Part shown: piece by piece, positions 29,273 to 32,200 of the stretch
Layout: every line of letters begins with the position of its first letter
How positions within the stretch are numbered: position 1 is the first letter of the stretch
NCBI RefSeq assembly: GCF_000002985.6
Contig: NC_003284.9
Location: forward strand, 10,540,001-10,604,000
Length of the DNA: 64,000 nucleotides
Reading direction: 5' to 3'
Source of the DNA: Caenorhabditis elegans
Lineage: Eukaryota; Nematoda; Chromadorea; Rhabditida; Rhabditidae
Position numbers and translations under genes: made by a program
The notes under the pieces: generated by a model
The model's database searches: none
What the model was told of the DNA's origin: nothing
Seen by the model: the letters and a program-made list of their open reading frames with translations, nothing else

Positions 29273-32200
29273 ATGTCAGACTACAGTGCAAAGCCGTCGG
29301 GCAGTTTGGCGCGCATTGGGGACTACGACCTTAGCTCAGATGATTCCGATCAGAATGACGAGGACGAAACTCTGATAGCTTCAAAAACAATACAAACGGG
29401 CGCTGTTCAGGTGAACGATATTGCTGTTGCCGAGGCATCTCCAGCAGAAACTGATGCAAAGTCGAGTGCAAGTCCGGTTTCGGGTCCGGAGCCACCAACA
29501 TCAGCAGTCGTTGAAAACAGAGATCTTGATGAATTTAAAAAAGAATCGGGTAGCAACGATGACAAGCAAGAGGAAATTAATGAGGACAAGGATTCCAATG
29601 AAGAAACAGTTTTCCAACAAACAGAAAGTGGATCTGCAGACGTTGTTGATAAAACAGACGTGAAGCAAAAAGACTCTGATTCCTCTGCAGATGATGATCA
29701 CTCTCATAGCAAAAGCGGCAGTGTTCACAGTCCACAGAAACCACAAGGTTCCACCACGCCGTGCAGTGTTCAGAGCCCAGCTAGTCCAGTAGGCGATGAG
29801 CAAGCTGTTAAGATGGAAGAGGTCGAAGAGCCAATTGTCGCATCAGAAGAAGTTCCTGACAAGAAACCAGAATCCGTCAAAGAATCCACAGATTCAGAGT
29901 CAAGTGGAAGTGAGCATGGTTTTGAGAAAATGGATACTGCTGAAAAGGTAGAAGATGAATGTAACGACGATGAAGTGGCAGCTTCCAATGGCACAGAAGA
30001 ACCGGAACCAGGCGACAAAGCTGCAGATACTGTGAATCCGTGGGAAACGCCTAGACAGGTAAGAATTTAAGAAATCGTTTTATTCTATTCGTTTATTTTT
30101 CTCAGGAACCTGTCGATGGTGTCGTCCAACCACGCACTGAACCACCTGCGGGTAAACCAACTCGTCACACCAACTGCCTTGATTTTGTGCTTTTCACCGT
30201 TGTGAAAGATGCTTTGAAGCACAAGCACTCGTGGCCTTTTCAGTTGCCGGTTGATGCTATCAAATTGGAAATTCCTGAATATCACAATATTGTCAACACT
30301 CCCATGGACCTGCGAACCATCGAGAAACGGCTCCGTAATTTATATTATTGGTGTGCTGAGGATGCAATAAAAGTGAGTAAATTTTGTTGTTGGCTTAAAG
30401 AGTTTAAATGATTGAAAGCCTTAGAAATTAAAAATAAAATTCTTCAAAAAATATATGAAGTGTGTGAAAAATGGGAGAGAGTTAAGGAGAAATAGATAAC
30501 GAAGAATAAAGACCATACTAAGAAATTCGATTACCAATGAATCGATTGAGCTCTTTCAAATTACTTTTTTGCATTGCGTGACGTTTTAAAAATTCATGCA
30601 TATATATACTTATTTTAAATACATTGCGAGTAACTTAATCTGAAATTGTATAAATTTGAAAGCGAAGAGTTGTACATTCTATATCTCTCAACCTCTCAAT
30701 TTTCCCACTACCATATTCCAACGGAGCAGTTTCAGCTACCCCCGCCCTCATTTTTTGCTGAGCGTGAGCTCATTGGGCTTTATTCATTTGGCGGAGTCCG
30801 CTTTCTTGCACCTTCTTTCCTGCCGTTCTTTCACTTCTTTTACTATATGCTTTTAGGCGCTAGGATGAAAAACTTTAATATTGACATGTTAAGGTGAATG
30901 GCATGGACAGGCATTGTAAACTGAGTTGGCTTACACTTTTGTTGTAAGCTGATTGAAAATGAATATTTTGTTAAGGGTCAGAAAAAAAAAACTAGAAAAT
31001 ATTTAGTCACGTTGAGAAGTTTTGCATTGATGCAGTGAAAAGTGGAAGAGAGAGAGAGAAAATAGATGTCAAAGAAATGCAAATTCCTTCTACAGAGTTT
31101 TGGCCGTGTAGTTGTCAGTAGAAAAATGGAATTTTCGGGTACAATTATGAAACCACAACTCTTTTGCCATTGGTTTCAATTCAATCTCAACAATTGATAA
31201 TTCGAAACCATTCAGAGCCTTTCCTTCGTTGCATGCTCTTTGTCTGCTTTTGTCTCAATCTCACCCTTTCTTCTCTCTCTCTCTCTCTCTCTCTCTCTCT
31301 CTCTCTCTCTCTCTCTCTCTCTCTCTCTCTCTCTCTCTCTCTCTCTCTCTCTCTCTCTCTCTCTCTCTCTCTCTCTCTCTCTCTCTCTCTCTCTCTCTCT
31401 CTCTCTCTCTATTCTAAATTTCTCACCAACAACGGGCTTCACCACGGGCTTCTTGCGCTGAATACCCACTAAACTATCACATCCCAAGTAAAAATTGAGA
31501 ATGTTATTAACGTTATTGGTTGATGATTTAGAAGTCATCACTTTGTCCCAGGGCAAACTTGTGCTCCCACGTTAAGCTTTTTTGTCACATCTCTCTGTGT
31601 TGCTTTTCATTCTCTCACACGATCAATCATGTTCCCCGCATTTTACATATACAAACACATACACTCTAACACATATTCTTGAAAGGCAAAAGAGTTGGTG
31701 GTTTCAGGACATCAACCAAGTGTTCATCAATTGTTACTCGTTCAATCCACCAGAATATGACGTTTACAAAATGGCCAAAACTCTGGAGAAGCAAGTGTTA
31801 AGCCAGTTAACGCAGCTCCCGCGATCTGTAAGTTTGCAATTTTCAATTTTTCCCCACTTTACAGGATCTGAATACATTGTTTGATAACTGCAAAAAGTTC
31901 AACGACCGCAACGACGACATTTATATTATGTGCGAGAACATCGAGGGTGTCGTTCAGAGAGGGTTGGAGTGGATGCCATCGGAGGTTCATTATCATATAT
32001 GCTAACGTGGATACATTATTTTCCCCGTTACTTTTTAAGATATTAAAACTTGAAATATTTTATTAACTGCTTTTGTTTTCAGGAAAAACCGGCTGATCTC
32101 GCTGATCATCATCGTCGGGGAATGTTTTCTGCATCGACACCTAGTGGCAAGACAAAGGGACCAAAGCAGCGTGGAAGAAAAAGCACCCGTGGCCGGAAGA

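Follow-up and report, generated by a model that had tools for sequence, protein, structure and literature searches.

A tandem pair of 120-nt exons in Caenorhabditis elegans bet-2 as candidate mutually exclusive halves of bromodomain 1

Splicing that remodels the core of a folded domain has been described in C. elegans for coq-2, in which two internal exons of equal length, 6a and 6e, are swapped, and the exon pair of bet-2 described here is organised likewise (PMC7434440). The two cases differ in that the coq-2 exons are 134 nt long, belong to an enzyme and are both backed by RNA evidence (PMC7434440), whereas the bet-2 pair belongs to a chromatin reader and is predicted from sequence. Joint splicing of two exclusive exons is blocked when the intron between them is too short, as summarised in a passage of PMC6071210 citing Kuroyanagi 2014, and exon pairs kept apart in this manner share with the pair in bet-2 a short distance between donor and branch site, which for bet-2 is a prediction. 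An effect of this distance is mentioned for the alpha-tropomyosin exons in PMC6692369, and the same text, on human splicing, reports that its reduction from 50 to 35 nt abolished assembly on one pre-mRNA. Splicing can also change what a chromatin protein reads, since splice forms of Drosophila NURF301 show altered histone binding (PMC2705796). These are distinct isoforms of a subunit of a remodelling complex and are not known to represent the swap of half a domain.

The window (the whole stretch of DNA analysed, 64 kb, bases 10,540,001 to 10,604,000 of contig 6, chromosome X) contains bet-2, which we take to be F57C7.1. The gene model built here comprises two bromodomain stretches, bromodomain 1 (BD1) and bromodomain 2 (BD2), with a combined Pfam score of 127.5 bits, and its features are listed in Table 1. 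The exon upstream of the pair, which contains the WPF motif and is shared by both forms, presumably provides helix Z, the ZA loop with this motif, helix A and the greater part of helix B, following the usual helix names. The sequence-only reading had described two consecutive exons, termed A and B here, of exactly 120 nt each and with phase-0 boundaries on either side; lengths and phases proved correct, as did the positions and the splice dinucleotides. A and B are thus adjacent internal exons of equal length and phase, as is typical of homologous mutually exclusive exons.

Table 1. Features of the bet-2 gene model around the exon pair A/B (positions in the window; a slash marks an exon-intron border).
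Feature	Positions	Strand	Evidence
bet-2 coding exon 1, acidic N-terminal stretch	29273..30058	+	open frame and splice junctions
Upstream exon, common to both forms, start of BD1	30106..30372	+	phmmer to BRD4 BD1; Pfam PF00439
Upstream intron, measuring 1335 nt up to exon A and 1492 nt up to exon B	30373..31707	+	
Exon A, 120 nt, phase 0: DINQVFINCYSFNPPEYDVYKMAKTLEKQVLSQLTQLPRS	31708..31827	+	Pfam, phmmer, alignment
Intron between exons A and B, 37 nt	31828..31864	+	
Exon B, 120 nt, phase 0: DLNTLFDNCKKFNDRNDDIYIMCENIEGVVQRGLEWMPSE	31865..31984	+	Pfam, phmmer, alignment
Intron 3' of exon B, 98 nt, donor GAG/gttcat, holds CTAAC and TTAAC	31985..32082	+	
Common downstream exon, linker and start of BD2	32083..32790	+	
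Following exon, opening with the remainder of BD2	32841..33343	+	

Exon A is bordered by tttcag/GAC and TCT/gtaagt and exon B by tttacag/GAT and GAG/gttcat, and the splice partners of both are the end of the upstream exon at 30372 and the start of the next exon at 32083. The 37-nt intron between them is of the GT-AG type, starts with gtaagt and ends with tttacag. The acceptor of exon B, tttacag, matches TTTTCAG at six of seven positions, and its donor gttcat agrees with gtaagt at one of the four positions +3 to +6, which is the lowest value in the gene model, held jointly with gtagta. Counted over ten positions, the donor of exon A showed eight matches and those of exon B and of the upstream exon six each; as the count for exon B equals that of the upstream exon, the weakness of its donor is not clear-cut, and A and B differ only modestly in this respect. 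On its intron side alone, the donor of exon B would suggest that this exon is perhaps seldom used. We lean, weakly, towards exon A as the presumptive default choice.

When joined to the upstream exon, A and B yielded scores of 66.7 and 61.5 bits, respectively, against Pfam PF00439. The exons alone reached 21.1 (A) and 15.8 bits (B), both below the cut-off of 21.7 bits, and exon B scored 14.7 bits (E 2.31) in a genome-wide Pfam scan. Comparison with BRD4 BD1 (chain 4bjx_A) by phmmer gave 131.9 bits for the A form and 127.3 bits for the B form. In a search of solved structures, each form matched 346 distinct sequences at 1e-5, and the best 60 of these 346 were all named BRD4. Exon B alone retrieved 190 distinct matches at E up to 1, of which the best 60 were BRD2, BRD3, BRD4 and BRDT sequences with matches spanning all 40 residues. 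Judged by these comparisons, either exon is predicted to complete a BET-type BD1.

The earlier assignment of both exons to the same part of BD1 was borne out by Pfam, which placed A and B alike at positions 60–83 of PF00439; homology within one and the same region of a domain, here with 14 of 40 residues identical, is a further property of mutually exclusive exons found in this pair. With helix limits taken from BRD4, both exons presumably open with the end of helix B and continue through the BC loop and helix C, which extends the earlier description by the end of helix B. Alignment with BRD4 retained N135, C136, F139 and N140 in A and B, in agreement with the NC and FN pocket residues previously noted as common to both, and also D145 and M149; for these six positions, numbering and residue roles follow BRD4. 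Both forms hence possess the acetyl-lysine asparagine together with its neighbouring residues and match a BET BD1 over the whole domain. The BD1 of BRD4 and BRDT and that of C. elegans BET-1 resemble bet-2 in sequence and in the acetyl-lysine residues. The strong difference of the loop residues was likewise found, with PPEY in A and DRND in B at positions 141–144, and further differences concern position 137 (Y in A, K in B), the gatekeeper 146 (V in A, I in B) and residues along helix C. The equivalents of N140 and D145 are identical in A and B, and loop and gatekeeper differ; a different reader specificity, with a preference of the A and B domains for different acetylated partners, would be plausible.

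A and B align without gaps, and neither the 14 of 40 identities, which were known from the sequence-only reading, nor the BLOSUM62 score was reached by any of 200,000 shuffles of B. A six-frame scan of the 64-kb window, comprising 18,014 stop-free windows of 40 amino acids scored jointly with A, bet-1, BRD4 and BRDT as references, ranked A first (484; A itself being one of the four references) and B second (337). Only one other window scored at least 60, namely a BD2 stretch of bet-2 (107). At the codon level, first, second and third positions agree between the two exons in 18, 24 and 12 of 40 cases, respectively, compared to 10.0, 12.4 and 10.3 expected from composition, and these counts were reached by 446, 2 and 32,535 of 100,000 codon shuffles. 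Identical codons encode just 4 of the 14 shared residues, one of these 4 being a methionine and hence without codon choice. Third positions, at which silent changes accumulate, at chance level together with second positions far above it indicate an old duplication under protein constraint. The pattern agrees with an ancient duplication of which each copy was presumably kept for its protein, and would be compatible with a recent disuse of one of them.

Such disuse would turn exon B into a relic that is skipped in nearly all mRNAs, with A as the sole working exon. An exon that contains neither stop nor frameshift, has intact splice dinucleotides and a length of exactly 120 nt, keeps the key residues and shows conserved second codon positions next to third positions at chance level is difficult to reconcile with this explanation, which we consider quite unlikely, even though the poor intron side of the B donor and the lower scores of B than of A, both in Pfam and against BRD4 BD1, would agree with it. 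It would also agree with the lack of an RNAi phenotype reported for bet-2 (PMC6890932), a result that does not bear on exon B itself. Loss of bet-2 might accordingly be tolerated, and the gene may have a mild or redundant role.

We consider it likely that bet-2 makes two forms in which exons A and B are used one at a time. The upstream exon would provide the first part of BD1 and either A or B the remainder, giving two proteins of 1209 residues which would differ in the BC loop and helix C. Within 37 nt, the spliceosome would have no room to engage both the donor of A and a branch site before B, and exon A would either be spliced straight onto the exon starting at 32083 or be left out, with B in its place. 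Both mRNAs would be made, the 37-nt intron would stay unremoved, and the resulting domains would differ in their acetylated partners.

All four combinations of the pair keep an open reading frame, with 1209 residues for A, 1209 for B, 1249 for both and 1169 for neither, and retention of the 37-nt intron leads to a stop at codon 410. As all four combinations are open, the frame cannot enforce the choice between A and B, and only the shortness of the intron or a regulator could do so. Exclusive exons of C. elegans were all frame-preserving in one study (PMC13247117), and the A/B pair is likewise frame-preserving. The smallest introns of C. elegans are given as about 40 nt in a passage of another splicing study (PMC7706725). 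The earlier proposal is supported in part. Enforcement of the use of one exon only by too short an intron is the reading which fits the anatomy best, as either exon yields a complete BD1, inclusion of both would add a superfluous helix C, the frame leaves the choice free and 37 nt is below the value of about 40 nt (PMC7706725); use of both exons is predicted. The candidate branch-point A residues of the 37-nt intron are located at its positions 18–19, that is 17–18 nt after the first base of the donor and 18–19 nt before the intron end. The remaining short introns in the gene model measure 47, 50, 54, 47 and 57 nt.

A survey of intron lengths in 29 records with 159,323 bases (some overlapping, introns deduplicated; ten loci overlapping the 64-kb window or the bet-1 stretch were left out) lacked power, with 25 GT-AG calls at a score of 12 versus 15 and 11 calls with decoy dinucleotides. 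Among the calls up to 60 nt in this low-power survey, one of 38 nt and none shorter was found. The spliceosome might yet remove introns of about 37 nt, and the gtaagt donor of A and the tttacag acceptor of B look usable. If this were the case here, A and B would be joined in one mRNA, in frame, to a protein of 1249 residues in which an extra loop and helix C come after BD1. We regard this outcome as highly improbable, as the intron is shorter than the smallest size of about 40 nt given in one study (PMC7706725). Moreover, B keeps residues of the pocket type, which would have no pocket to face once A fills BD1. With moderate confidence, we attribute the exclusivity of A and B to the length of the 37-nt intron as a steric step.

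Two forms could also arise under the control of a regulator which represses one exon and activates the other, with the short intron playing no part; with respect to the existence of two forms, this explanation overlaps with the one preferred here. The intron after exon B contains CTAAC and TTAAC, i.e. two matches to [CT]TAAC where 0.28 are expected, and the upstream intron contains one TGCATG (0.25 expected). These counts derive from nine overlapping motifs tried in four regions, with chance levels from single-base shuffles, and may still be due to chance. As the motifs are short and many were tried, and as a regulator may pick A or B without being what forbids the use of both, we consider control by a regulator in place of the short intron unlikely. 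Exclusion guided by RNA structure, of the docking/selector type, was rejected as a further candidate, since no unusual stability was detected across the exon pair, for 31690–32083 or for the 37-nt region. Folding of 31690–32083 was unremarkable (z +1.58; 94 of 100 shuffles folded at least as well), and so was that of the 37-nt region (z -0.18 and -0.13; 80 of 200 and 86 of 200 shuffles were as good). The donor of A can pair with the acceptor of B, at a strength which shuffles also reach.

Relatives of the pair were sought within and outside the genome. The BET gene on contig 1, presumably bet-1, has a single exon for this part of BD1, which follows an inferred intron of 54 nt at the same codon boundary and in the same phase, and its frame continues open where exons A and B end. 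The intron thus lies at the same place as in bet-2, but bet-1 has only one version of the second half of BD1. The position of the upstream BD1 intron seems to be common to bet-1 and bet-2, as far as the inferred gene structures indicate, and in BD2 of bet-2 the intron is located four codons later than in BD1. In the whole-genome Pfam bromodomain scan, 32 matches were obtained at E up to 10, and, read by eye, bet-2 was the sole place where one N-terminal piece is followed by two C-terminal pieces that cover the same part of the profile, in a scan which was incomplete in that it missed the second half of bet-2 BD2 and that of the domain of L019, another bromodomain gene. A run on contig 1 (7,495,683–7,498,433) accounted for six matches, two of them without the N-terminal part. 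In L019 (contig 6, about 594717), which is perhaps F13C5.2, the intron seems to lie four codons past the BD1 position, as it does in bet-2 BD2. F13C5.2 is named as a BET orthologue in PMC6890932.

Comparison of the two exons with their relatives revealed that B scores nearest to bet-1 (103, 17 identities), and that A scores nearest to BRDT and BRD4 (96 and 93) and by identity is nearest to bet-1 (18); A and B score 66 against each other. In a tree of 8 rows and 40 columns, B was placed with bet-1 and apart from A (support 84/84), and with the same 8 rows and 40 columns a sister relationship of A and B was not rejected (p-AU 0.136). Duplication may have preceded the separation of bet-1 and bet-2, or the exons may simply have diverged fast. 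By tblastn, no relative was detected with the A form in a collection of prokaryotic contigs (219 pattern stretches) and none with the B form in a collection of viral contigs (9 pattern stretches); as these collections are prokaryotic or viral, both results are silent on nematodes. An acetyl-lysine reader whose pocket loop is swapped by splicing under a purely physical lock, in an exchange that perhaps pre-dates the split of bet-1 and bet-2, such that nematode BET proteins may once have possessed a splice-switched reader which was later lost from bet-1, is a scenario that we put forward only tentatively and with considerable doubt.

Most likely, A and B are mutually exclusive, homologous exons, probably kept apart by steric hindrance, which is a known type of event in an unusual place. 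Among the main texts searched, no paper linked bet-2 with mutually exclusive exons in C. elegans, and none contained the name F57C7.1; a listing of the pair would be most expected in the survey of Kuroyanagi 2014. bet-2 is absent from the main texts of PMC9013439, PMC7434440, PMC13247117, PMC3585155, PMC7706725, PMC12084633 and PMC3923563, and in PMC6890932 and PMC6619800 it is mentioned as a BET orthologue or hub gene. For C. elegans, the Kassiopeia resource gives 389 predicted exons of this kind, distributed over 138 genes (PMC3923563), and these predictions could include bet-2. The A/B pair may be part of existing annotations.

Should both forms be produced, a single gene would give rise to two versions of the type of domain targeted by BET inhibitors, and whether splicing retunes the binding of a chromatin reader would become directly testable. 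With differences confined to the loop and helix next to the pocket, the two forms would amount to a domain swap made by nature in an experimentally tractable animal. A and B also represent a simple two-exon case for measuring the intron length that forbids splicing in C. elegans. If exon B is unused, the finding would amount to a minor relic.

Some further features of the locus were observed. The intron before exon A contains a perfect (TC)n array of 139 nt with 69.5 copies (31272–31410), which constitutes a pyrimidine-rich tract about 300 nt 5' of the alternative exons. The extra-terminal (ET) domain of BET-2 at 33398–33882 gave a weak Pfam match of 15.5 bits, compared to a cut-off of 24.5 bits, and appears divergent or degenerate as its score is below this cut-off. 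At 34313–34330, an in-frame stop (AGT TAG) shares bases with the donor of the intron at 34320. BET-2 would comprise 1087 residues if this intron is left unspliced and 1209 residues if it is spliced, and short and long forms of BET-2 via the intron at 34320 appear possible from the predicted gene model. These two alternatives are reminiscent of human BRD4, which likewise has a short and a long form.
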